This document shows positions 10,412 through 39,253 of a stretch of DNA of 46,872 bases, in pieces. Position 1 is the stretch's first letter; each line of letters begins with the position of its first letter. Origin of the DNA: a virus. Made by a program: the position numbers and the translations under genes. Under the pieces are notes generated by a model. That model was not told the DNA's origin and did not search any database. It was given only the letters and a program-made list of their open reading frames with translations. The stretch covers positions 1 through 46,872 of IMG/VR virus record IMGVR_UViG_3300025133_000192. One strand, given 5' to 3'.

Positions 10412-12621
10412 TGGCCATTAAAAAATACTTTTCAAATGCAGACAACACTATTACTAGCGCCTTTCGCGCGAATTTGACAGCCCGAGGCACTCATGCAAAC
10501 ATGGGCCTCTCCGATATACTGGAAACATTTTCAATATATGGTCAAGCCTCGTCAACCTCTACCGAATTAGAGAGAATCTTAATCAAATTCCCAGTTAATA
10601 AGATTTCTCAAGACAGAGTGAATGGGATTCTTCCTGCCCAGGGCAAGGTTAGATTTTATTTGAACATGTATAACGCCCCACATAATCAAACAACACCCAG
10701 GGAGCTAGAATTATCAATTCTGCCAATTTCAAGATCTTGGCAGGAGGGAACTGGGCTGGATATGGAGGAATACCGAGATACAACCGATGGCAATGAGGGT
10801 TCGAGTTGGATCCAAGCTGCTAAGTCTGACCCTTGGCAGCGCCAAGGGGGAGATTACCTGTCTTCTCCTGCTTTTTCTCAAACTTTTCCCATAGGAAACG
10901 AAAACCTCCGGGTTGACGTTACCGCCCTGGTGGAAGATTGGATCGCCGGAACAATTGAAAATCACGGTGTAGGGGTCCATCTAACATCGAGTCAGGAAGC
11001 TTATTTCGCTGAATATTACCCAAGAGAAGCTGTACAATTTGACGGCGCCGCATTCCTTTCAGGAACATCAGATACCGATCTGAAAAACGATTCTACAATA
11101 TCCGCCTGGATTAAGCAATCTAACAACGCGGGCACGAGATATGTGCTTTTTTGGCAAAGAAGTGGGGCAACAAGTTTCAGGAGGGTTTTACAAATAAATC
11201 CGGCCGGCACAGCAGTCGTTTATAGAAAGATGTACTCCCTAGGGACCACCACAATAACAACTGATGATCCCCTTCCTCTAAATACCTGGACCCACATAAC
11301 AGTGACGGACACACAAGACTCAGCAGATATTCCCTCAATTTATATAAACTCAATCTCCGCTTCCGCAACGGTCACACAGGGCACAGGTTCTGCATTAGAT
11401 GATGTCGATATGTTTGCCATTGGGGGCTCAAAATCGGGAGCTTCCTTTAATTTTAGTGGATATATCGATGATGTAGCATCTTTTGATAAAATTTTAAGTC
11501 CCGGAGAAATAACTGAGCTTTATAACGGCGCATGTCCGGCCCCAATTAAAGAGCTTTCTATTTATGAAAATCTCTCAAATTGGTGGGTTCACGGCGATGA
11601 TCCTAGAGATGAAATTAATCTTGGAACTCCCCCAACAGAAATAAGTATTTATGACAGGGTTGGTGACATGAATCTTTATGCCACCGGTTCGGGAGGCATG
11701 TCCATCGTAACTGGCGCATGTTTTGGTGGCGGCGGAGTTGTGGGCCCAGAGTCAGATGGTCAATTAATAAATCTCAATGGCGCCCAAACAAGCTATTATA
11801 CCAAGAAATTCTTCGGAAGAGGGAGCGAATTTTATTATAAACGACCCGTTATTGAGGCTTGTTGGGATTCTTCTATCAAAGACGATCGAGGCCGCGTCTA
11901 TGCTAGTAGCTCTCTTCTTACTGCGGCTGAAAATAGTCATACTATTTATCTTTATAATATTTACGGAGGCCGTTTGCGCAATATCCCCTCTATTGGAACA
12001 GGGCCAATTTTCGTCGAGCTTTTCTCGGCCTCGTTCGGAGGCGCATCTCTATCTCAAATAACCGGAGGATATGTTTCGACGGGGATCTACTCCGCCTCAA
12101 TAGAAGAGGCGTCCCCCATGTTTGTGGGAGAAACTTTCTATGATCGCTGGGGCACTGCGGGGCTAGGAACTGTCTTCCATACCGGGTCTTTTAAGCTGCG
12201 TTCCCATAACGCTTTTTCATATCACCCATCCAGCGTTAAATATGTTTCGACCCTTACAAATCTCCAAGCGGCCTATACTCCCGCTGACAATGTGCGCTTA
12301 AGAGTGTTTACGCGATTAAAGAATTGGTCACCCACCATTTATACTGTTGCCAACTCTCTTATCGAGACTTCTATTATAGTCAGCGCTTCTTATGAGATCT
12401 CCCGCGTTGTAGATGATTTAAAAGTTCTCCCCTATGGGACGGGGTCCGATAATTGTACGATGATGTCATATGATGTAAGTGGCAATTATTTTGATTTAGA
12501 TATGGGCTATTTCGAACCCGGATATGCCTATGGAATAAAGATTGCTTTCTATGATGAAACTTCGTGGGTAGAACAACCATATATATGGAAATTTAGGGTT
12601 GATAAATTAGATGAGCATTAG
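10411..12621 (+). CDS. Structural protein with DNRLRE-like N-terminus and LamG-type jelly-roll insert (736 aa)
   Basis: Residues about 1-200 resemble a DNRLRE/TGF-beta-propeptide-like module: ELERILIKFPVNKIS, later SRSWQEGTGLD, WQRQGGDYLSS and VDVTALVEDWIAG. Residues about 208-370 form a LamG/concanavalin-A-like jelly roll: VQFDGAAFLSG, STISAWIKQ, LNTWTHITVT, a ring of beta strands, then GYIDDVASFDKILSPGEITELY. Residues 463 onward (YTKKFFGRGSEFYYKRP and a following DDRGR motif) resume what looks like the parent structural protein. LamG domains commonly bind glycans or protein ligands, so a receptor or surface contact role is likely. The gene starts inside the stop of gp6 (TAATG) and overlaps the next gene by 11 bases, so it is translationally coupled with both. 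Position after gp6 is where T4 has gp7 and gp8, but I see no clear gp7 or gp8 signature. Confidence 0.75.
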   Translation: MAIKKYFSNADNTITSAFRANLTARGTHANMGLSDILETFSIYGQASSTSTELERILIKFPVNKISQDRVNGILPAQGKVRFYLNMYNAPHNQTTPRELELSILPISRSWQEGTGLDMEEYRDTTDGNEGSSWIQAAKSDPWQRQGGDYLSSPAFSQTFPIGNENLRVDVTALVEDWIAGTIENHGVGVHLTSSQEAYFAEYYPREAVQFDGAAFLSGTSDTDLKNDSTISAWIKQSNNAGTRYVLFWQRSGATSFRRVLQINPAGTAVVYRKMYSLGTTTITTDDPLPLNTWTHITVTDTQDSADIPSIYINSISASATVTQGTGSALDDVDMFAIGGSKSGASFNFSGYIDDVASFDKILSPGEITELYNGACPAPIKELSIYENLSNWWVHGDDPRDEINLGTPPTEISIYDRVGDMNLYATGSGGMSIVTGACFGGGGVVGPESDGQLINLNGAQTSYYTKKFFGRGSEFYYKRPVIEACWDSSIKDDRGRVYASSSLLTAAENSHTIYLYNIYGGRLRNIPSIGTGPIFVELFSASFGGASLSQITGGYVSTGIYSASIEEASPMFVGETFYDRWGTAGLGTVFHTGSFKLRSHNAFSYHPSSVKYVSTLTNLQAAYTPADNVRLRVFTRLKNWSPTIYTVANSLIETSIIVSASYEISRVVDDLKVLPYGTGSDNCTMMSYDVSGNYFDLDMGYFEPGYAYGIKIAFYDETSWVEQPYIWKFRVDKLDEH

Positions 12622-15600
12622 GAAACTATTCGATAAAAAGATACCGTACTCCATCCAGGGCGCAACAGATATTGCGCAATTGGGAAGGGAAGTCGAATCT
12701 TCTGGGAACATGGCCCAGCGCCTTATCGAGAAGAATAGGTTTATTCCAGATGTAGATTTTGCATACCCCGCCAACTTCGCCAAATTTGGATCCGCTGAAA
12801 AATATTATATTGATGCGATGGAGAGGATTTATAATCAATATCCCTATGATGGATCTCTGCAGGAACGCACGAAGTTCGCTAATGAGTCTTCTTATTTAGA
12901 TCTTTATATCTTCGACGAAAGATACCCCAGAAGAAATGGGTATGGGACCATCGCCTCGGAAGGCGCCTTTTGGCCGCCTCCCTTCGGAGGAGATCCTTAT
13001 AATCCCCCCACTCAGGTAGAATATATCGAATTTAGGGGTGGTCCTCACGGGGCCCCTGATGAATTTCGACAGGAAACTATTCAAAAACAATTTCCGGAAT
13101 CTAATATTTATAGTCCTCCCGATGATCGAGGTTCCAATCTTACAATGGATGGCACCAAAGGAACCACTATTGAATTTTGGTTTAAACACGGTCCCCAATA
13201 TGCTCCTTTCGACATAATCCCCCCTGGCGGCATATCGAATGAAGTATTATTTTCTGCTGTTTCGGGAAGTGCCTATCTGGAACTCAACGCCGAAAGGCAT
13301 GATACCGGTAACATAATTTTCTTGACGTTGGACGCTAGAGATGGTGCGGGAAATGTGGTCAATACTACATGGACCAACATCACTGAGGATTCCTGGGAAG
13401 AATGGAATCATTATGCTTTTTCTATGATAAATTCCGGATCCGGAACTGAGTTTAAACTTTATATTAATGGAAATCTTGTAAACACTGCCAGCGATCCAGA
13501 TCAAATAGAGGAAGTTAATTTTATTTCTGGCGCTCTGGGAGCGTCCCTTAACCCCATATACGGCACCAAAGGCGTCGGCAAAACCTCTGGCTCCTTTGAT
13601 GAATTCCGCTTTTGGAAGACTCAACGAACTTCTCAAGATATTGGCAGATATTGGTTCACCCAGGTAGGCGGAGGAACCAATACCGACCTTGCCAACACGG
13701 ATTTGGGAATATATTATAAGTTTAATGAAGGTATAACCGGAAGAGGCGCTACCGATTCGACGGTTTTGGATTATTCGGGCAGACTCTCGAATGGAAGCTG
13801 GATCGGTTATCCGGGTTCCGAAGCGCGCTCCACCGGCTCGGCGATGGTTTTATCCGACGCGGCAAAATTCGAATTTAAAGACCCCATTATTTACTCCTTT
13901 CACCCTGCGGTCAAGCGCATTCAGGCATCTTTAGCCTCATCAGGCTCGGCCTATGATCATACCAATAATGCGAGTATCTATCACTCGATGCCAAATTGGA
14001 TTATAGATGAGGATGAAATCGAAGCCGGAGGCGCCCTCAAAACTTTGACACAAGTGATGTCGAGCTATTTGGACGCACTCTACCTCCAGATCGAAGCGCT
14101 TCCGAAAATTAGAGATATGGTCTATGACTCAGATCATGTTAAACCCGCGCCCTTCGCAAGTAAACTATTAGAATCCTACGGTATGCAAGCGCCTGAAATA
14201 TTTGTTAATGCCGATATCCTAGCACAGATTTTAAACAGAGATGAAGAGAGAGAATTCGAAGAACAGTTAGGAGATATTAAGAACCTTATTTATAAAAATA
14301 TCTACAATAATCTCATTTACATTTATAAATCTAAAGGAACCATGAAATCCATTCGAAACCTGGTTCACTGCTATGGTGTAGATGAGGACTTAATCCGGGT
14401 TAATTCCTATGGCAATAATGTAACCTATACTTTAAAAGATAATTTCCGCCCCAAGGCTCAAAAAAAGAAATATGCGGATTTTAATGACACCGATCGTTTT
14501 CAGGCTACAGTTTATCAACAAACCGCTAGCGGAAACCCCGCAAGCCGCAACTTCATCGCCGCTCAAGGCACCAACACAGCCTTCACTGCGCAGTGTGAAG
14601 TTATTTTTCCACGCAAATTAAAGGAATCCGATCCCGCGTATTTCCGTACTCCCTTTTTAAGTTCTTCCATTTATGGCTTTCATTCCGCTTCGGCAACAGT
14701 CACCGACTTGACTTGGGGGATTCACGATCAAGGCTTACAAGTATATGCGGTTCGGGATCAAATTGAATCCCCCAATGCTTATTTCCAATTAGTCAATACC
14801 GAAGGAACTCTAAACCTCACGAGCAGTCTCTTTTATGACATATATGATAATAAAAAATGGAATTTAGCTTTCCGTCTCCAACGAGAAAAGCCAGTAGCCG
14901 ACTTAGTAAGTGGGAGCACCACTCCCGGTAATTATATATTAGAATTTTACGGCGTTAATTCGGAAGTGGATGTTGTGGCTAATGAATTCTACCTAACTCA
15001 GAGTGTCGATAATGCCGCGACAGGGTCCATTGGTAGGCGTAAGCGCTTTTATGTGGGCGCCCATCGCACTAATTTTACGGGATCCGTGCTGACTCGCAGC
15101 GATCTTAAAATATCTTCCTTAAGATATTGGGGAACTTACCTCAATAACGATGTTATAAAGGCCCACGCGCGCGATGGTGCCAATATGGGAACCTTATATC
15201 CGCCAAAAAGCGCCTATTTATATCCGAAGGTACCTTTCGGGACGGAGATTCCACAAACAGAACTCCTGGCCCTGAATTGGGATTTTACTAACGTCACTGC
15301 GTCAGGCCCGGGCACTACGCCCAATGCTTATGACGCCCAATACACGGTGCAAGACCTTTCTTCCGGTTCGTTGGCCCTCGCAAGCGACAGGGCCCGCTTT
15401 TCTACCTTTGCTAACGTAGTCAACCGTCAACATACAGGTCGAGGCGACTTCTATTTAGCTAATGACTCCAAAGTGGTTGATTTGCGGTATGTTTATAGTG
15501 GAAAACAGAATTTACCGGAAGTGGTATATAGCTCTGATATGATTCAGATCATGGCCAGCGACGATGTAACATTTACCAAAGAAAGTCGACCAGTTGATTA

Positions 15601-18600
15601 CTATTTCCAGATAGAAAAGAGCATGTATCAAACGATTTCGGATGAAATGCTTAATATTTTCGCTACCATTGTGGATTTTAATAACTTAATTGGCGAACCG
15701 GTGAACCGATACCGCCAGCGATATAAAAGGATGGAGAAATTACGACAACTTTTCTTTGAAAGAGTCGAAAACACGCCCAGCTTAGACAAATATGTCCAAT
15801 TTTACGAGTGGATTGATGCTTCTTTAAATGTCATGATACAACAATTGCTCCCCGCATCGGCCAATTTTAGTGAGGATATTAGAAATATGGTCGAAAGTCA
15901 TATTTTGGAGCGAAATAAGTATAGAACTAAGTTCCCCACCCTCGAAATGGCGCCCACACACCCCATCACCGGTATTCGCGGCATAAATGAGCTTCTTTAT
16001 AACTGGAAGTTCGGACACGCACCTATTTTGGCATCGATATCGCCCGCCCCTCAAAGTGAAAACTGTTTTTGGTGGAAACAAAGAGCCGAACGAGATGAAC
16101 CGCCGCTTTCATCGAGTGCCAGCGGGGTGAATGCCTCTAAAGAGAAAATTTTAGCCTCCACAGTTAGAGTTTTAGATCGCAGTTATTCTACTCCCTATCG
16201 CCTTACGGTCGATAAATCTCTCCAAGCTCATGGTGGGGTTAATTTCCCTCCGATTAAAAAGATTGATTATGTTAAATCAGCCATTAAATTTGGATCCACG
16301 ACGGGAGTTACAGTTGGTGAAGTCCAACCCTTAAAAGACTGCGACGATGTCTATAATCCCTGGGAAAAATTAAAGTTAGGGTTTAAGGCCACAACAAATG
16401 AACATAGCTATTTTTCAGGAAAAGGCGATATTTTCACTCCTTTTAGTTTATATTCGTCTTCCATTTATGATGACGTAGCACCCGGTACCAAAATAACCAA
16501 CCTTCATACAGATACATATGGTGACGATAAAGCCGTTCCAATGCAGGGCCCTTTTACAAATTATGCGGTAGGGGGCTTACAATATAGGCATGTTCCCTTT
16601 GATTCACAACTATATCTTTCGGAGACGTTCACTTCTCAATCAAAATTTGATGATAATAATGGCCTGGATCCTGCTGTGTGGAGTTTCAATCATGATGTCG
16701 CGCAACCACGAACATATTGGACGGGCCCACGTCTGGGGAGTGGTACCGACGGAGATACGCGCACCGACAACTGGGCAGTCCGCCTTGCGGGATTAAATAA
16801 TACTATTGGCACCCAGGAACGCTGGTTGGAAACAGTGCAGAAATATGATTGTCCACTGGAGGTTATTTTCGGATATGCACAGGGGGACTTTCAAAATGTA
16901 ACACTGGTGGGATACGATTTACAATTGCCAAATGAGGGATCCTCTCCTCTTGAAGATCTCCTTTTCCAATATAGTTTGGATGACGGCGCCTCGTGGATAA
17001 CTCAAAAACATTTCCCAGCCTCCGATGATAATCAGGGAAAAGACATTGGTTGGAGAATTCATCATGCTAAATTTCCCGCTGACTTTGCTGCATCCAGTCT
17101 TAAGTTTCGGTGGTATCAGGAAGATACCAGCGGCGCCAACTTGGACAACTGGGCCATAGATTTTGTTCGCATCACTAATGGCAAAGAGCGCCCAGAGGGA
17201 TGGGAATTTAAAAATAATAAATTCACGCGTCCTCCTATCACCATGTATGAGACCGTCCCGGCATCTGCATATTTTATTGGCTCTCTTTTTCAACCATATG
17301 CCCCCTACTATCGCGACGAAATAGCCAAAAGGCCCGTCAATATTCGCAATATTCATCATCGCACAGGCTCTACAATCATGGGCAACTACAATGCGGTTTA
17401 TGATTTAGTCCAAACATGCGGCCGCCGAACGAACAACAGAGCTTTCGTCAAGGCAGGCGGCTTTAATTTAAATCCCCTCCCTATTTATTCGGAGTATATT
17501 TTAGATGTAGCCGCTCTCGAATATGCCAAAATTCAACGGGGACGTACACCGCATGTTTTTGTTAACCGATTCTCAGCGCCAGGAGGTCCCGACACCGCTG
17601 GGAATGCTAATGGGGGCCCCGGTTTAGACCGAGCGTCTGGTGAGTTGTCGTCCAATAACGATGTCAATTACCGAAACAATTTTATTCGCCAAGTCTTACA
17701 ATGGCTCCAAACATCGCATGTTGGCCAATTTGGATATTATACAAACTCTCAAAATATTAATGGTCTCGCAGGGTCGACTGTAAACCCCTATAATTATGCA
17801 GGGACTGGTTCGATTTATCAAGTAAATCGAAACCCAGTAGGCCGGATAATCTCGGGCGGTTTATACAATCCTCCCGGTCCAGATGGGACGCGATATTCAT
17901 GTAAGACCACTTATGATAATTATTATATCCAGCACGCTATCCCCCAAAGCGATTGCCATTATACATGGACAACTGCGTCGGTTTTGGGATGCGAGTGTCC
18001 TACGGGATACTGGCCTTATGATGGAATGGATGGCGCAAAGCCGGCCGTTTCTTTTGTAAGTGCTAGCTCTATTCTGGCCGTTCCATCGCTCCCGTTCATA
18101 GACGCGCAATGTATTGATTTTGGGAAGGGCCCTTCGCCAACTAAGAATTATCTCGAATGTGTCACACCCTCGTGTTATCCGTCGCCCTTTGGAAAACCTA
18201 ACCCAGGCAACCAGCCTGATTGTAACCAATCTCTTGGTCCGGTATTTACGGTCTCCGTGTGGATCAAATATGACGGCGCCGCTGGATGGGGCGATGGCAC
18301 CATCATAAGTAGAGCTAAATTTGATAATGGGGTCATTGATGAAGAGAATAGTGATTGGTCTTTAGCCGTGGATGATGCCGGGAATGTTACGTTTGTGGTT
18401 AATTCAGGCCCCATCCCTAACCCTGGAGCCACTGGTGGATTCCGAGGTGCTCGAAGTGTGGTGGGAGGGGGCGCCCCGAATCTGTGTGATGGAGATTGGC
18501 ATAGCATTCTCGTCCACTTGGCAGCCAACTGGCATTCCAGTCGTTGTAAGTGGAAATTCTGGATCGCCATTGATGGGATCCAACTTAGTGGGGGGCAGGT

Positions 18601-19879
18601 AAGTGGCATCAATAACACCTACCCAGTCTTTGGATCATCTGACGACCGTATACCGGCCGTATTATCAAAGACATTCATCGGAGCCACATATGACACCGTC
18701 CAAGAAACAACAGCTCCATTCCCAGGTAAAATGACGCAGTTGGCGGTGTGGATGAAAGGTATTAGGGGCACTTCGGCACCGAATACAGCTACATTCCTGG
18801 CTGCCTATAACAGTGGATGTCCGCCTGATCTTATCAATGACCCTACTCTGACTGCGATTGCTAACTATGAAATGCCGACGACATGGTATAGAATGGGTGA
18901 CGTTTTCGGAGACTCCACCGCACCCGGGGGCATTATTCACGATGTCGTGACTCATTATGATACTGGCGGAGGAGGAGGACCGAAGCCCGTTCTCGAAGGG
19001 CCTATCAATGCGATACCTCACCACATGAGAGAAACCAATATCACGCGTGATCGACCATGTCCCAATATTTGCATGATGTATAATGGAGGAGTTAAATCTT
19101 TTCCATTGGATTTTGTAGGATTAAATACTGTAATTGTAGACGAGCTAAATCCCTCCGTCGGCCTAATGAGTTCTTCGTCGGGAGAATATGAAAATACTTA
19201 TTTTGCATGGCTTTGTGAAACAGAGGATGCCGCTGCTCATCAATTCCGCGCTTTGATATGTCACCGCCAAGGTCCCTATGGGTGGCCAACTTGGAAACAA
19301 ATAAGAGGATCCGAGAATTCGTTAGTGCGTTATTATCGAAAAAATAATCTTATAACGTGTAATGGAAACCCTGGCCCGACACGAATTTTCAAAGATGGAA
19401 AAACAACCCGGGTAGTCACCGACCGCTTTGGATCATTTAAAGTGTATCACGAGCCAGCAGTCACCTCTCAATGTATCCCCATTCAACATACATTTGGGTT
19501 GAGAACTGCAATTTATCCCAAAGCGGGAATTCCCTATAGTACCATTGAGCCGGCCACATATCAAAGTACGTTAGGGAATAATTTAGAACTATTTACCAAT
19601 GAGGAATTAAACTATTGTTCAGGGCTGAAACAATGTGACCCCCAAGCTTACGATACGTTCAAGGGCCTTTATCTTGATGGCGCTCTTAACGAACCATCTA
19701 ATCCAATTTATAGCTTCATTGAATTGGTCTACAAAGAACGAGTTTATCCGGCAGCAAATAATGCCCACAAACAAATTAATCGAGAGAGAGCAGGATATAA
19801 AAATGATTTTTGGAAAAATTCCAGACAGAAAAGAAGTGCCATTGGCGCCAAAAAATGGGGCGGCGGAGGTTGTAAATGA
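12611..19879 (+). CDS. Giant multidomain virion protein with LamG and reelin-like jelly rolls (2422 aa)
   Basis: This is the largest protein of the window. Residues about 137-407 contain a LamG-like domain (TTIEFWFKHG, EEWNHYAFSMIN, FKLYINGNLV, SGSFDEFRFWK). Residues about 640-860 hold another concanavalin-like beta sandwich (KKWNLAFRLQR, ILEFYGV, SSLRYWGTYL). Residues about 1332-1524 resemble a reelin-repeat jelly roll: LLFQYSLDDGASW, then KFRWYQ at 1498-1503 and DNWAIDFVRI from 1512. Residues about 1810-2110 hold a third LamG-like domain in a Cys-rich setting (VSVWIKYDG at 1881, CDGDWHSILVHL, WKFWIAIDG). The segments between them look like one continuous phage structural protein. Such domains bind sugars or proteins, so roles in baseplate periphery, fibre attachment or receptor contact are likely. 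It starts 11 bases inside the previous gene and ends in an ATGA overlap with the next, so all are co-translated. No trypsin-like or enzyme motif was seen. Confidence 0.78.
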   Translation: MSIRKLFDKKIPYSIQGATDIAQLGREVESSGNMAQRLIEKNRFIPDVDFAYPANFAKFGSAEKYYIDAMERIYNQYPYDGSLQERTKFANESSYLDLYIFDERYPRRNGYGTIASEGAFWPPPFGGDPYNPPTQVEYIEFRGGPHGAPDEFRQETIQKQFPESNIYSPPDDRGSNLTMDGTKGTTIEFWFKHGPQYAPFDIIPPGGISNEVLFSAVSGSAYLELNAERHDTGNIIFLTLDARDGAGNVVNTTWTNITEDSWEEWNHYAFSMINSGSGTEFKLYINGNLVNTASDPDQIEEVNFISGALGASLNPIYGTKGVGKTSGSFDEFRFWKTQRTSQDIGRYWFTQVGGGTNTDLANTDLGIYYKFNEGITGRGATDSTVLDYSGRLSNGSWIGYPGSEARSTGSAMVLSDAAKFEFKDPIIYSFHPAVKRIQASLASSGSAYDHTNNASIYHSMPNWIIDEDEIEAGGALKTLTQVMSSYLDALYLQIEALPKIRDMVYDSDHVKPAPFASKLLESYGMQAPEIFVNADILAQILNRDEEREFEEQLGDIKNLIYKNIYNNLIYIYKSKGTMKSIRNLVHCYGVDEDLIRVNSYGNNVTYTLKDNFRPKAQKKKYADFNDTDRFQATVYQQTASGNPASRNFIAAQGTNTAFTAQCEVIFPRKLKESDPAYFRTPFLSSSIYGFHSASATVTDLTWGIHDQGLQVYAVRDQIESPNAYFQLVNTEGTLNLTSSLFYDIYDNKKWNLAFRLQREKPVADLVSGSTTPGNYILEFYGVNSEVDVVANEFYLTQSVDNAATGSIGRRKRFYVGAHRTNFTGSVLTRSDLKISSLRYWGTYLNNDVIKAHARDGANMGTLYPPKSAYLYPKVPFGTEIPQTELLALNWDFTNVTASGPGTTPNAYDAQYTVQDLSSGSLALASDRARFSTFANVVNRQHTGRGDFYLANDSKVVDLRYVYSGKQNLPEVVYSSDMIQIMASDDVTFTKESRPVDYYFQIEKSMYQTISDEMLNIFATIVDFNNLIGEPVNRYRQRYKRMEKLRQLFFERVENTPSLDKYVQFYEWIDASLNVMIQQLLPASANFSEDIRNMVESHILERNKYRTKFPTLEMAPTHPITGIRGINELLYNWKFGHAPILASISPAPQSENCFWWKQRAERDEPPLSSSASGVNASKEKILASTVRVLDRSYSTPYRLTVDKSLQAHGGVNFPPIKKIDYVKSAIKFGSTTGVTVGEVQPLKDCDDVYNPWEKLKLGFKATTNEHSYFSGKGDIFTPFSLYSSSIYDDVAPGTKITNLHTDTYGDDKAVPMQGPFTNYAVGGLQYRHVPFDSQLYLSETFTSQSKFDDNNGLDPAVWSFNHDVAQPRTYWTGPRLGSGTDGDTRTDNWAVRLAGLNNTIGTQERWLETVQKYDCPLEVIFGYAQGDFQNVTLVGYDLQLPNEGSSPLEDLLFQYSLDDGASWITQKHFPASDDNQGKDIGWRIHHAKFPADFAASSLKFRWYQEDTSGANLDNWAIDFVRITNGKERPEGWEFKNNKFTRPPITMYETVPASAYFIGSLFQPYAPYYRDEIAKRPVNIRNIHHRTGSTIMGNYNAVYDLVQTCGRRTNNRAFVKAGGFNLNPLPIYSEYILDVAALEYAKIQRGRTPHVFVNRFSAPGGPDTAGNANGGPGLDRASGELSSNNDVNYRNNFIRQVLQWLQTSHVGQFGYYTNSQNINGLAGSTVNPYNYAGTGSIYQVNRNPVGRIISGGLYNPPGPDGTRYSCKTTYDNYYIQHAIPQSDCHYTWTTASVLGCECPTGYWPYDGMDGAKPAVSFVSASSILAVPSLPFIDAQCIDFGKGPSPTKNYLECVTPSCYPSPFGKPNPGNQPDCNQSLGPVFTVSVWIKYDGAAGWGDGTIISRAKFDNGVIDEENSDWSLAVDDAGNVTFVVNSGPIPNPGATGGFRGARSVVGGGAPNLCDGDWHSILVHLAANWHSSRCKWKFWIAIDGIQLSGGQVSGINNTYPVFGSSDDRIPAVLSKTFIGATYDTVQETTAPFPGKMTQLAVWMKGIRGTSAPNTATFLAAYNSGCPPDLINDPTLTAIANYEMPTTWYRMGDVFGDSTAPGGIIHDVVTHYDTGGGGGPKPVLEGPINAIPHHMRETNITRDRPCPNICMMYNGGVKSFPLDFVGLNTVIVDELNPSVGLMSSSSGEYENTYFAWLCETEDAAAHQFRALICHRQGPYGWPTWKQIRGSENSLVRYYRKNNLITCNGNPGPTRIFKDGKTTRVVTDRFGSFKVYHEPAVTSQCIPIQHTFGLRTAIYPKAGIPYSTIEPATYQSTLGNNLELFTNEELNYCSGLKQCDPQAYDTFKGLYLDGALNEPSNPIYSFIELVYKERVYPAANNAHKQINRERAGYKNDFWKNSRQKRSAIGAKKWGGGGCK

Positions 19880-34591: not shown

Positions 34592-35116
34592 ATGATCCTC
34601 GGACTCGACATTAGCACAAGTATTGTGGGGGTATGTGTTCTCAAAAATGACAAAATTGTTCATACACAATACATTGATTTGAGAAAAATCAAGAACTTTT
34701 TTGAAAAAGGACAAGAAGTCGAAAATGCTTTAAAGGATATAAAGAAAAATTTTAAAATTGAATACATTTATGTTGAACAAGCTCTCATGTTCTTCCGTCG
34801 AGGAGGCTCAACTGCTAAAACTATGTCAATTCTGCAACGATTTAATGGCATTGTTTCCTGGTTATGTTATAATATATATGGGATGGAACCTAATTATATC
34901 ACTCCTATTGGCGCTCGGTCAAAATGTGGCATAAAAGTCAAAAGAGGCGAGAAAGCCAAGGAAATTGTTATGAAATACTTCCTTGAAAATGAAGATTTCG
35001 GCATCATTTACACAAAAAAAGGTAATATTCAGAAGTATTGCTACGATATCGCAGATGCTATCGTTGTTGCGCGCGCCGGTTATTTAACTTTACGCGAGAT
35101 CCAAAAAAAGACTTGA
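34592..35116 (+). CDS. RuvC-like Holliday junction resolvase (174 aa)
   Basis: The protein has the RNase H-like fold pattern of RuvC. A first strand with the catalytic Asp (ILGLDISTSIVGV, D6), a second acidic residue after a strand (IEYIYVEQAL, E62), and a C-terminal helix with two Asp residues (YDIADAIVVARAG, D152 and D155) match the D-E-D-D tetrad of RuvC enzymes. The length agrees with bacterial RuvC (about 173 aa). It would cut four-way junctions made by recombination-dependent replication so that DNA can be packaged. T4 uses the unrelated endonuclease VII (gp49) for this. It begins 3 bases after the structural paralogue and ends inside the promoter of the primase gene. Confidence 0.85.
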   Translation: MILGLDISTSIVGVCVLKNDKIVHTQYIDLRKIKNFFEKGQEVENALKDIKKNFKIEYIYVEQALMFFRRGGSTAKTMSILQRFNGIVSWLCYNIYGMEPNYITPIGARSKCGIKVKRGEKAKEIVMKYFLENEDFGIIYTKKGNIQKYCYDIADAIVVARAGYLTLREIQKKT

Positions 35117-35147: not shown

Positions 35148-36086
35148 ATGAATGAAAAGCTATCTATTCTCTCTAATATCCTCGGTTCGCATTTCCAAAC
35201 GAACGACGAATATGTGTTCTTTTGTCCCTACTGTAAGCACGAAAAGAGAAAATTTTCTGTCAACTTGAAGCGAAATGTCTATAAGTGTTGGGTATGCAAT
35301 CAGCGCGGAAGAAGCCTATATAGGGTCGTCAGACGATTTGGTTCCTTTAAGGACCAGGAAGGTTGGAGGACCCTCATGGGCGCGCCCAGAGAGGATTTAG
35401 GCCGCTTCGAGGCCCTATTTGAGGGGGAAATACCAGAAGAGAATATCCAGGTGGTGGATCTCCCGAGCGACTTCAAGAGTCTGACTCGCGCGCATCTTGA
35501 TTCGTGCGGCAGAAAGATGTTAAAGTATTTAGAAGGGCGAGGAATTGACAAAAAGGATGTTCTTGGGTGGAAGGTAGGGTATTGTTCGTCCGGTCGTTAT
35601 CGTGACAGGGTTATCTTTCCGTCTTTTAACGAAGACGGCGCCGCAAATTATTTTGTCGCGCGCGCCCTTACCGAAGGAGATTTCAAATACCTCAACCCAG
35701 CAGCAAGCCGTAATATTATTTTTAATGAGTTATATCTGGATTTCGATAAAGAGATAACGATTGTTGAGGGTATTTTTGATGCCATGAAGGCTGTAAACGC
35801 GGTGCCTATCTTGGGCTCGACATTATCCGAAAATTCTGTACTTTTTAAGAAGATTATTAAACATGACACACCTGTTCTTTTGGCGTTAGATAAAGACGCC
35901 AAATGGAAGGCCCTTAAAATTAAACGTTTGTTATTAAAATATGGTATTGAGATACGAGAGTTGGATTTAGAAGAATATGAAGACGTTGGTGAAATGTCGA
36001 AGGATGAATTTAAACGTTTATCATCTCAGGCTTCTTTTATTCAAGAAGAAGATATTCTTACCTCTCTCATTTCTAATATCAATTAG
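35148..36086 (+). CDS. gp61: DNA primase, DnaG/T4 gp61 type (312 aa)
   Basis: Residues 26-50 form a zinc ribbon with two CxxC pairs (C26, C29, C47, C50; CPYCKHEKRKFSV and YKCWVCNQRG). The middle contains the primase core (GWKVGYCSSGRYRDRVIFPS). The Toprim domain follows with E207 in ITIVEGIFDAMKA and the metal-binding DxD as D248 and D250 (LLALDKDAKWKA). Length is close to T4 gp61 (342 aa). It makes RNA primers for lagging-strand synthesis with a replicative helicase that is not in this window. A sigma-70 promoter lies just upstream and would give a leaderless or nearly leaderless mRNA. The stop is followed 8 bases later by the recombination nuclease gene, so the two are likely an early or middle operon within the late region. 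Confidence 0.9.
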   Translation: MNEKLSILSNILGSHFQTNDEYVFFCPYCKHEKRKFSVNLKRNVYKCWVCNQRGRSLYRVVRRFGSFKDQEGWRTLMGAPREDLGRFEALFEGEIPEENIQVVDLPSDFKSLTRAHLDSCGRKMLKYLEGRGIDKKDVLGWKVGYCSSGRYRDRVIFPSFNEDGAANYFVARALTEGDFKYLNPAASRNIIFNELYLDFDKEITIVEGIFDAMKAVNAVPILGSTLSENSVLFKKIIKHDTPVLLALDKDAKWKALKIKRLLLKYGIEIRELDLEEYEDVGEMSKDEFKRLSSQASFIQEEDILTSLISNIN

Positions 36087-36094
36087 GAGAAAAA

Positions 36095-39000
36095 GTGAAA
36101 TTTGCGCATATTGCAGATACTCACATTCGTAATTTAAAATATCATTACGAATATAAAATTGTATTTGATAAACTATATCAAACACTAAAAGATGAAAATG
36201 TTGACTATATCATCCATTGCGGAGATATCGCTCACACGAAGACGCAAATTAGCCCGGAATTCGTGGAGATGTGTACTAACTTCTTTCGAAGTCTGGCAGA
36301 TATTGCCCCCACCTATATAATTCTAGGCAACCATGATGGCAATTTAAAGAATTCGAGTCGACAAGACGCATTAACGCCAATCGTAGAAGCCCTGGATCAC
36401 CAAAATCTTAATTTATTGAAGAATTCAGGAGAAGTTCCACTAGAAGGCGACTTTGTTCTCAATGTGTTATCAGTTTTTGATGAAGATAATTGGTCTGAAC
36501 CAAGCGATCTAGAAAAAATTAATATTGCCCTATATCATGGATCTATTTCGGGTGTCAAGACCGATACAGGATGGGTTATGCAACACGGCGATCACCCGTT
36601 GGAAATTTTTCGCGGCCTCGACTATGGATTCCTTGGGGACATTCATAAAACCAATCAGTGTTTGGACGAAGGGGGTTATATTCGTTATCCTGGCTCTACT
36701 ATCCAACAAAACTTTGGTGAGACCAATGATAAAGGATTCTTAATTTGGGAAATTGATAGTAAAGAAGACTTTACTTGTCGTCATATCCAGATTGATAATC
36801 CGCGCCCGTTTATTACTATTGATTTGACATCCAAGGGCAAAATGCCCAAAAATATTGAAAAAATAGTTCCTCGAAAAGCTCGTTTGCGGCTTGTATCTCA
36901 TAATAACCTTCCCCTTAACGTAATGAGAAAAGCCATCGAAATCGCTAAAAACCAATTTCAGCCGGAAAGTGTCACCTTCCTCAACCGTGGAGCCGGCGAG
37001 CATGGTACTATCGACGAATTGGCTATATCTCTGGAGACTGAAGACCTTCGCGATCTTACGGTCCAAGAAGACCTCATAAAAGAATATCTGAAAGATTTCG
37101 AACCATCAAAAAATTTGATGGAGAAGGTGCAACAATTAAATTTGAAATATAATCAACTGGCGGAAGAAAATGAAGAAGTCTCTCGCAATATTAATTGGAA
37201 GTTGCGTGAAATTAAATGGGATAATCTTTTTAATTACGGGGAAGACAATTCTATTAATTTTGATAACCTAAACGGAATTGTGGGCATCTTCGGGAAGAAT
37301 TTCTCCGGCAAATCGAGCATTATCGACTCCATTTTATACACTATCTTTAACTCAACTTCCAAAAATGACAGAAAAAATTTAAATATTATTAATCAGAATC
37401 AAGGAATCGGTCGCGGAACTGTAAAAATATCTATTGGAGAAAATGACTATTTTGTGGAGCGAGAATCGGAAAAATATACGCGCAAGCTCAAAGGCGTCGT
37501 GACAGAAGAGGCACGCACAAATGTAGACTTTAAGATGTACAATGCATCGATGGATAATATCCAAACATTAAATGGACTCACCAGAAATGATACTGATAAA
37601 AACATTCGTAAGACCTTCGGAACATTAGATGATTTCCTTTTTTCGTCTATGTCTTCTCAGTTGGGGGCGTTGGCTTTTATTAGCGAAGGTTCCACGCGCC
37701 GGAAAGAAATTTTAGCTAAATTTCTTGATTTAGAATTTTTCGACAAGAAATTTAAATTAGCCAAGGAATCTGTAGCTGACACTAAGGGCGCCCTTAATAA
37801 ATTGGAAGGTCGCAATTATGACGAAGAATTAATCAGCGCCGAGCTTGACCTGGAAGATTGTAATTTAAAACTTTCCAAACAACAAAACGATTGTAATAAA
37901 TATGATCTTTCCATCAAAGACAAAGTCCAACAACGGGAAGACATTATTGCTCAAATTGAGTCAATTCCGGCTGAAATTATCGATGTGGTTACGGTTCGCA
38001 CCGAGCTTCGGGACACAAAGAATCAAATAATATCTCTATCGGATATGAATCACACTCTCCTGTTGGAGCGCGACGAAAAGAAAACTCAATATCAAAAAAT
38101 TATTGATTTTATCGAGAATTTTGATATTAAAAGTCTCTATGAGGATCAAGACAAAATTGATGAAATGGTTGCAGAACTCGAAGCTCTAGAATCTCACTTA
38201 AACAAAGAAGAAGAGGAATTAGAAAGGAATACAAATAGGGTGCAGTTATTGGACGGCATTCCATGTGGCACACAGTTTCCAACTTGTAAATTTATCAAAG
38301 ACGCATATGCCTCCAAGGCAATAATTCCCAGCAATAAACAAAAAATTGATATTTTTGAGGAGTCTATCGAGGACTTAGCCGATCAGGTTGCTTTAATTAA
38401 TCCCGACAGAGTCGAAGAACATATTACCAAATATAATCAAGTGACCGAGAAGAAGAATGCTCTGTCTAATGATATAATCAATTCCGATTTACAGGTAGAA
38501 AAGAATTCTTCTATCATCAAAGACTTAATGAATCAAGTGGTTTGCCTTGAAGATAAGGTTTCGGAATATGAGCTTAATAAGGATGCTATTGAAAATTTGG
38601 AAAGTTTGCTTAAAACCAAAAAGTCTCTCAAGTGGGAAGCCACGAGGATGCAGAGATTATATGACGCATGCCAGGAAGATGTATTGGCGCTCTATAAAAC
38701 AATTGGCTCCTATGAGCAGAAAATAGAAAACATCAAAGAACAAAAACAACAATTTACTGATTTGCGTGATGAGTATGCGGCTTATGATCTTTATTTGCGG
38801 TGTATGCATCCCAATGGGATCGCTTACGACATCATCAAGAAGCGCCTTCCAGTAATTAACGAGGAAATAGCCAAAATCTTAGCAAACATTGTTGACTTCG
38901 AAGTATTTTTCGAAGACGACGGTAAGAGATTAAATATCTTCATTAAGCATGCAGAATATAACCCACGGCCGCTGGAGATGGGCTCAGGGGCAGAGAAAAC

Positions 39001-39253
39001 AATTGCCGCCGTCGCCATTCGGCTGGCTCTCTTATCGGTTTCGAGTTTACCCAAATCGGATATCTTTGTTCTCGACGAGCCGGGAACAGCCTTGGATGAA
39101 GAAAATATGCAAGGCTTTATTGATATCTTAGATTTAATCAAATCATATTTTAAAACAGTTTTATTGATTTCTCATGTGGATTCTTTAAAAGACTGTGTAG
39201 ACATGCAAGTCACTATCGACAAAAAGGAAGGTTATGCATTCGTTCAGCAGTAA
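36095..39253 (+). CDS. gp47-gp46: Fused Mre11-Rad50-like recombination nuclease (SbcD-SbcC; T4 gp47-gp46 in one chain), 1052 aa
   Basis: Start is GTG 36095, 6 bases after AGGAG. Residues 1-340 are a calcineurin-like nuclease: DTH (D8, H10), CGD (D44), GNHD (79-81), an HG at 148, and GDIH at 181-184 where Mre11/SbcD usually has GHxH. Residues from about 370 are a Rad50/SbcC ATPase: Walker A FGKNFSGKSS (to 408), a long coiled coil, a hook with C724 and C731 (CGTQFPTC), a returning coil, the signature MGSGAEKTIAAVA, Walker B DIFVLDEPG near 989-997, and ISHVDS as H-loop. Together they process double-strand ends for recombination-dependent replication. In T4 the two subunits are separate genes 47 and 46; here the order nuclease-ATPase is retained in a single polypeptide with no stop between them. 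It follows the primase and precedes the lysis-like genes. Confidence 0.93.
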   Translation: MKFAHIADTHIRNLKYHYEYKIVFDKLYQTLKDENVDYIIHCGDIAHTKTQISPEFVEMCTNFFRSLADIAPTYIILGNHDGNLKNSSRQDALTPIVEALDHQNLNLLKNSGEVPLEGDFVLNVLSVFDEDNWSEPSDLEKINIALYHGSISGVKTDTGWVMQHGDHPLEIFRGLDYGFLGDIHKTNQCLDEGGYIRYPGSTIQQNFGETNDKGFLIWEIDSKEDFTCRHIQIDNPRPFITIDLTSKGKMPKNIEKIVPRKARLRLVSHNNLPLNVMRKAIEIAKNQFQPESVTFLNRGAGEHGTIDELAISLETEDLRDLTVQEDLIKEYLKDFEPSKNLMEKVQQLNLKYNQLAEENEEVSRNINWKLREIKWDNLFNYGEDNSINFDNLNGIVGIFGKNFSGKSSIIDSILYTIFNSTSKNDRKNLNIINQNQGIGRGTVKISIGENDYFVERESEKYTRKLKGVVTEEARTNVDFKMYNASMDNIQTLNGLTRNDTDKNIRKTFGTLDDFLFSSMSSQLGALAFISEGSTRRKEILAKFLDLEFFDKKFKLAKESVADTKGALNKLEGRNYDEELISAELDLEDCNLKLSKQQNDCNKYDLSIKDKVQQREDIIAQIESIPAEIIDVVTVRTELRDTKNQIISLSDMNHTLLLERDEKKTQYQKIIDFIENFDIKSLYEDQDKIDEMVAELEALESHLNKEEEELERNTNRVQLLDGIPCGTQFPTCKFIKDAYASKAIIPSNKQKIDIFEESIEDLADQVALINPDRVEEHITKYNQVTEKKNALSNDIINSDLQVEKNSSIIKDLMNQVVCLEDKVSEYELNKDAIENLESLLKTKKSLKWEATRMQRLYDACQEDVLALYKTIGSYEQKIENIKEQKQQFTDLRDEYAAYDLYLRCMHPNGIAYDIIKKRLPVINEEIAKILANIVDFEVFFEDDGKRLNIFIKHAEYNPRPLEMGSGAEKTIAAVAIRLALLSVSSLPKSDIFVLDEPGTALDEENMQGFIDILDLIKSYFKTVLLISHVDSLKDCVDMQVTIDKKEGYAFVQQ

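Follow-up and report, generated by a model that had tools for sequence, protein, structure and literature searches.

The window, the whole 46,872-base virus record, carries one uninterrupted frame of 1052 codons at 36095-39253 on the plus strand, read from a GTG start, with genes for a large terminase and a T4-type portal protein (Portal_T4, 3.4e-71) downstream of it. Pfam assigned Metallophos to residues 1-156 of the encoded protein (1.6e-12), SMC_N to residues 370-1041 (2.8e-15) and AAA_23 (2.3e-9), while PHROG returned an SbcD-like match (5.2e-31) and an SbcC-like match (1.5e-49), and the protein matched solved Rad50 and Mre11 chains by sequence. No Rfam family matched in the window at the gathering score. 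The gene, its parts and its upstream neighbours are listed below, with the family alignment and the AF2 model described after the list.

34592-35116, plus strand: RuvC-like resolvase gene, upstream (PHROG, 1.5e-11)
35148-36086, plus strand: DnaG-type primase gene, directly upstream of the fused gene (Pfam, PHROG)
36085-36089, plus strand: AGGAG resembling a ribosome site, 5 bases ahead of the GTG
36095-39253, plus strand: fused Mre11/Rad50 (SbcD/SbcC-type) gene (single frame, Pfam, PHROG, structure-sequence matches)
36095-36799, plus strand: Mre11 nuclease domain, residues ~1-235 (Pfam, family alignment, 7dog_B fold match)
36635-36646, plus strand: motif V, GDIH (181-184), with Asp at the place of the first His of GHxH, as reported for Mimivirus R555
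36800-36988, plus strand: predicted capping domain, residues ~236-298 (AF2 model; 7dog_B is a nuclease plus capping domain structure)
36989-37042, plus strand: variable loop from capping domain to helix-loop-helix, residues ~299-316 (model confidence is lowest at 299-310)
37043-37168, plus strand: helix-loop-helix (HLH), predicted helices 321-335 and 339-358 (AF2 model)
37169-37192, plus strand: fusion linker of fixed length, residues ~359-366 (family alignment, AF2 model)
37193-37729, plus strand: Rad50 N-lobe, residues 367-545, with Walker A (400-407) and Q522
37730-38245, plus strand: predicted coiled-coil arm 1, residues ~546-717 (AF2 model)
38246-38287, plus strand: hook, residues 718-731, with Cys724-X6-Cys731 in place of CXXC
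38288-38806, plus strand: predicted coiled-coil arm 2, residues ~732-904 (AF2 model)
38807-39250, plus strand: Rad50 C-lobe, residues 905-1052, with signature (962-968), Walker B (989-997), L1000-D1001 and H1027

The first-pass annotation had placed all nuclease and ATPase motifs that it listed for an Mre11/Rad50 equivalent in this one chain, and each was found at its position: DTH at 8-10, GD at 43-44 and GNHD at 78-81 in the nuclease, and Walker A within 397-408 (G400-S407), the signature MGSGAEK at 962-968 and Walker B DIFVLDEPG at 989-997 in the ATPase. To these we add H148 and motif V, GDIH (181-184), on the nuclease side, and Q522, L1000-D1001, H1027 and the hook cysteines 724 and 731 on the Rad50 side. 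The metallophosphoesterase motifs I-V are thereby complete with one substitution, GDIH for GHxH in motif V, and the ABC-ATPase motifs of Rad50 are split by a coiled coil. The AF2 model of the protein had a mean pLDDT of 84.5 and a pTM of 0.49, so that it was used for local structure and not for the overall domain arrangement. Residues 1-298 of the model matched SbcD (7dog_B, Z 24.9, rmsd 3.1, 277 aligned) and the Rad50 part matched Rad50 (3av0_B, Z 31.0, rmsd 4.7, 358 aligned); these fold matches, together with Pfam and PHROG, bear out the assignment of both enzymes to a single chain. The best BFVD matches were giant-virus repair proteins, Tupanvirus deep ocean among them (E 1.7e-61, 22% identity), with a TM-score of only 0.39.

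A search for similar fusions had been proposed, and it found many. Three scans of viral contigs returned 26, at least 80 and at least 80 loci, the conserved-peptide search favouring close relatives. One of the two patterns used in the second scan contained GDIH; the first and third scans were run without it. The query of the third scan was the nuclease part alone, so its ranking cannot favour fusions and split genes could have entered, and none was present among the matches listed. Complete fused frames made up 21 of 26, 75 of 80 and 56 of 80 of the matches listed, the rest running off the end of their sequence and none being split. Across the junction, one frame is open in 180 of the 186 loci among the matches listed; six (L019, L020, L024, L181, L193 and L195) have too little sequence there to tell, and none is split. 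Motif V and Walker A were found in one frame in 178 of these 186, of which 170 are distinct and 8 share their last 300 residues with another. Two further loci are L182, a complete 1052-aa frame whose variant Walker A (SPNASGKS) falls outside the search pattern, and L018, which is open across the junction and begins after motif V. These sequences show a fusion that is stably kept throughout a large family and is widespread among viral DNA.

Residue conservation was assessed in an alignment of 81 of 97 full-length sequences, the 16 left out by hand being mostly near-copies. Nuclease residues D8, H10, G43, D44, H47, G78-D81, H148 and G181-H184 are each invariant in 81/81, as are G405, K406, Q522, S964, G965, E967, K968, D994, E995 and H1027 of Rad50. 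An AGGAG likewise precedes the start in all six relatives examined.

A scan of genome_contigs gave 12 loci. Three of them (L114, L115 and L117) are MAG contigs with the full fused gene, and L114 has its length and coordinates in common with L044's viral contig; L118-L125 match weakly, and in the nuclease part alone. In the remaining locus, L116 (CP070664.1, 3995-6052), a WOR-3 'chromosome' MAG, a run of N cuts off the phage genes of the family, and about 1.4 Mb away lies a second fragment; this is likely mis-scaffolded phage DNA. L117 (CALBOT010000005.1, 3030-7081), binned as Candidatus Nitrosopelagicus, encodes a primase and a 1053-aa fused Mre11-Rad50, lies near the IMG/VR contig L160 in both trees described below, and may be a virus contig. 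A cellular origin was rejected, the only genome_contigs loci being MAG contigs, the L116 fragment and weak nuclease-only matches.

At the junction between the halves, the variable, low-confidence loop at ~299-316 leads to a helix-loop-helix that is still predicted, and after an ~8-residue link the first Rad50 strand follows at 367-376. R319 and N377 are 58 residues apart in 81/81 aligned sequences, and R364 and N365 of the linker are invariant (81/81). Mean conservation is 0.71 in the linker, close to 0.75 in the nuclease and 0.73 in the Rad50 N-lobe, and 0.46 in the loop before the HLH and 0.42 and 0.45 in the coils. Because the linker comes directly after the HLH and before the Rad50 strand, the link added by fusion runs from the HLH to the ATPase: on the model, fusion would add some 8 covalent residues and retain the loop on the nuclease side. 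A changed tether between nuclease and coiled-coil base, as first suggested for this protein, was thus not borne out. By analogy with known Mre11, the HLH would bind Rad50, and here it may be seated on the coil base of its own chain. For the T. maritima complex, the estimate of Yoshida et al. was that 9-12 residues would span the distance from Mre11 end to Rad50 start (PMC3175470, here and below as excerpted).

The first-pass annotation had allowed that a stop or frameshift lost in assembly might separate two halves, or that an internal start might yield a free Rad50 part. For the former, in which the fusion would be an assembly or sequencing artefact joining two normal genes, we see next to no likelihood: no stop or frameshift occurs between the halves in the 180 of 186 listed loci with enough sequence to judge, a second contig (L008) encodes a 100% identical protein, and the junction is conserved at constant length. 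The fusion is confirmed as genuine. A fused product that is cleaved or re-initiated into separate Mre11 and Rad50, working exactly as the split enzyme, is a little less far-fetched and still very improbable. The window's gene does contain in-frame TTG 341, ATG 342, GTG 345 and TTG 350, the last with a 4-base ribosome-site match, the most reached by any in-frame ATG, GTG or TTG at residues 341-396. Against this, Met occurs in at most 24 of 81 aligned sequences at any position from 320 to 385 (the maximum being at residue 342), so that no internal start is conserved and none has a good ribosome site, and the linker shows sequence conservation and a constant length.

A further reading takes the nuclease half to be altered in activity, with the protein serving chiefly to tether or sense DNA ends, or acting as a nuclease whose metal requirement differs. 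It draws on the Asp in motif V. GDIH is found in 81/81 of the alignment, a biased count as part of the alignment was found by the pattern containing GDIH, and in 80/80 loci among the matches listed in the nuclease-part scan, whose patterns lacked it; the motif is GHxH in 9/9 split phage Mre11s and in the 3 cellular Mre11s examined. Asp can itself bind metal, however, all other ligand residues are invariant, and a dead site would hardly be kept so strictly. GHxH, not GDIH, also occupies motif V in the fused proteins of phages PAU, XacN1 and LMTA-57. The His at this place is named among the residues for nuclease activity in PMC3175470, and metal use or activity could differ with Asp there, but we consider an altered role of the nuclease half unlikely, and the preferred reading remains a one-chain Mre11-Rad50 enzyme.

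A CXXC hook is typical of Rad50. The window protein lacks a CXXC zinc hook at the coil apex and has Cys724-X6-Cys731 instead, within a hook that in the family typically reads P-C-G-x-x-F/Y-x-x-C-K/R-F-I-K/R-D-A. Classed by simple patterns, the 81 aligned sequences comprise 61 with C-X6-C, 10 with C-X2-C and 10 with neither, the last including forms such as C-X7-C. In the third scan, all 56 complete frames among the matches listed have a CXXC within residues 561-900, one of them also a C-X6-C, and a CXXC hook is present in 8 of the 9 split phage Rad50s examined. On a FastTree tree built without the hook columns, which has SH-like support only and carries a long-branch warning, the three types require 13 changes; C-X6-C against the rest requires 12, all of them forced by starred branches. 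On this tree, hook type changes repeatedly within the fused family. Tentatively, the C-X6-C hook may replace the CXXC zinc hook in function and may have been swapped with CXXC and other hooks many times, in which case Rad50 dimerisation modules would be exchangeable cassettes and not a fixed feature; we put this somewhat below an even chance. The window protein itself is read as working like Mre11-Rad50 with another hook sequence. We found no such C-X6-C hook described in excerpts of the zinc-hook literature; ocean SMC proteins without CXXC, discussed in PMC12153180, are a different case. Nor is a CXXC hook part of the definition of the fusion in the excerpts of PMC3175470. An SbcC-like protein of Moorella phage MTATph1 (L032, 4995-7127) matches neither the CXXC nor the C-X6-C pattern.

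The rarity implied for such a fusion did not hold, a fusion of this type having been published by Yoshida, Claverie and Ogata (2011) for Mimivirus R555 (PMC3175470). They described twelve further fusions, from bacteria (some on plasmids), from eukaryotes and from Bacillus phage 0305phi8-36, together with abundant marine homologues of most likely viral origin; in R555 itself they reported that His replaces the final Asp of GDxxD and that Asp stands where P. furiosus has His206. Set against that published description, the window protein shares the order Mre11 then Rad50 in one frame, a retained HLH, a short linker (~8 residues here, 9-12 proposed there) and both nuclease substitutions, H47 (GDxxH) and D182 (at the position of P. 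furiosus His206), these positions being matched by motifs and not by alignment with P. furiosus. Homologues abundant in marine viral DNA are likewise a feature of both. The window protein is shorter, 1052 against 1351 aa, and its gene has T4-type portal and terminase genes as neighbours. Apart from an unusual hook sequence, it is an ordinary member of the published fusion type.

T4 gp47/gp46 and the phage and cellular SbcD/SbcC resemble the window protein in their enzymes, core motifs and fold, but are encoded by separate genes and have GHxH (9/9 split phage) and CXXC (8/9 split phage). In excerpts of a jumbo-phage survey, too, SbcC and SbcD are treated as partners (PMC7824862). We built one tree for the nuclease half, with 32 rows, and one for the Rad50 half, with 29, from a hand-chosen set of 20 fused and 9 split proteins, with 3 cellular ones in the nuclease tree, from which the cellular row L215 was left out as it had no frame passing the motif filter; only 8 of the 80 loci listed in the third scan are included. 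Nineteen fused proteins form one group (99/98 in the nuclease tree, 100/99 in the Rad50 tree), and the window protein lies outside the T4-type group in both. The twentieth, the 1099-aa 'recombination endonuclease subunit' of Xanthomonas phage XacN1, is also a one-chain Mre11-Rad50 but differs in its GHFH motif V and CXXC hook, and both trees join it to the split pair of Atu_ph07 (100/97 and 100/98). A single clade of all 20 fused rows was rejected (p-AU 0.00014 for Mre11, 0.0006 for Rad50). The trees point to a separate fusion in the T4-type lineage of XacN1, and so to more than one fusion; several rows are long-branched, which leaves the deeper order unsure.

One-chain fusions also occur in the isolated phages pT24 (L228), MA9V-1 (L229) and PAU (L230), where they are recorded as 'DNA repair', 'metallo-phosphoesterase' and 'gp288'. 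pT24 and MA9V-1 share GDIH with the window and PAU has GHIH; all three proteins differ from the window's in their length of ~1300 aa and CXXC hooks, and the motif I pattern (D.H) had no match in their first 40 residues. PTm1, PTm5 and MA9V-2 have one annotated feature under the match and are candidate one-chain fusions. In Listeria phage LMTA-57 (L227, 1504-4533), a 1009-aa fused record with GHYH is found, and two other Herelleviridae phages, ESa1 and 043JT007, have two genes; the LMTA-57 record reflects either a fusion of recent date or an error in the sequence.

Among the matches listed, 159 loci have at least 1 kb of upstream sequence, and in 124 of them a primase gene directly precedes the fused gene (21/21, 26/59 and 77/79 in the three scans). 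The primase is the usual neighbour, though in a minority in the second scan, and this fits a role in recombination-dependent replication, as described for T4 gp46/gp47 (PMC3175470). The RuvC-like gene is not general, being upstream in 21/21, 46/53 and 0/75 loci with at least 1.8 kb of upstream sequence among the matches listed. Nine viral contigs were searched, and in each the fused frame accounts for the single SbcD-type and the single SbcC-type match; a second SbcCD may exist elsewhere, the window being a 46.9-kb record only and the nine contigs having no completeness estimate. The search also covered four named phages. XacN1 matches each family once, Mel-JY01 shows two extra SbcC-type matches, both weak (7e-6 and 2e-4), and in LR756501 there is a second SbcC-type match, a strong one (3.7e-74), along with an SbcD-type match elsewhere. 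The SbcD profile missed the fused gene in LR756501 and LR756508. In the latter, a 484-kb phage (L028, LR756508.1, 4944-9169), the fused gene is interrupted just past GDIH by ~1 kb that contains a 305-aa frame. This frame matches a TnsA-like endonuclease domain (5.8e-6), and the insert may be a mobile element of the homing type; Rfam, searched up to E 0.1, showed neither a known intron nor any other RNA in the interrupted gene. Elsewhere in the window, a 2422-aa frame (12611-19879) combines a laminin-G/concanavalin-like domain with a stretch resembling a reelin subrepeat and perhaps encodes a large virion or host-binding protein.

Taken together, the fused gene probably encodes the phage's own Mre11-Rad50 (SbcCD, T4 gp47/gp46-type) DNA-end-processing enzyme in one chain, a fusion of the R555 kind. 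The single frame, the catalytic and ATPase motifs, the predicted fold, the conserved junction and the primase as usual neighbour are established, while dimer assembly, nuclease activity, hook function and a role in replication are drawn by analogy from known families. We propose that two chains would pair into the usual head with two nucleases and two ATPases, through Mre11-Mre11 contacts and ATP sandwiched between the Rad50 heads, and that the coiled-coil arms would come together at the cysteine hook. Binding and hydrolysis of ATP would open and close nuclease access for DNA ends, and the resected 3' ends would serve the phage genome in recombination-dependent replication and in repair. The expectation that fusion fixes the stoichiometry holds in that a 1:1 chain ratio follows from the sequence; fusion would ensure 1:1 co-synthesis and keep the HLH beside its own Rad50, the predicted domain arrangement, HLH docking included, being limited by the pTM given above.

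Complete frames on viral contigs beside phage genes are given here, whereas the 2011 paper aligned only partial marine scaffolds. A one-chain Mre11-Rad50 with a fixed junction offers a convenient single-gene model for the coupling of ATPase to nuclease through the HLH. The varying hook, the part most worth following, provides natural variants for asking what a Rad50 hook must do.
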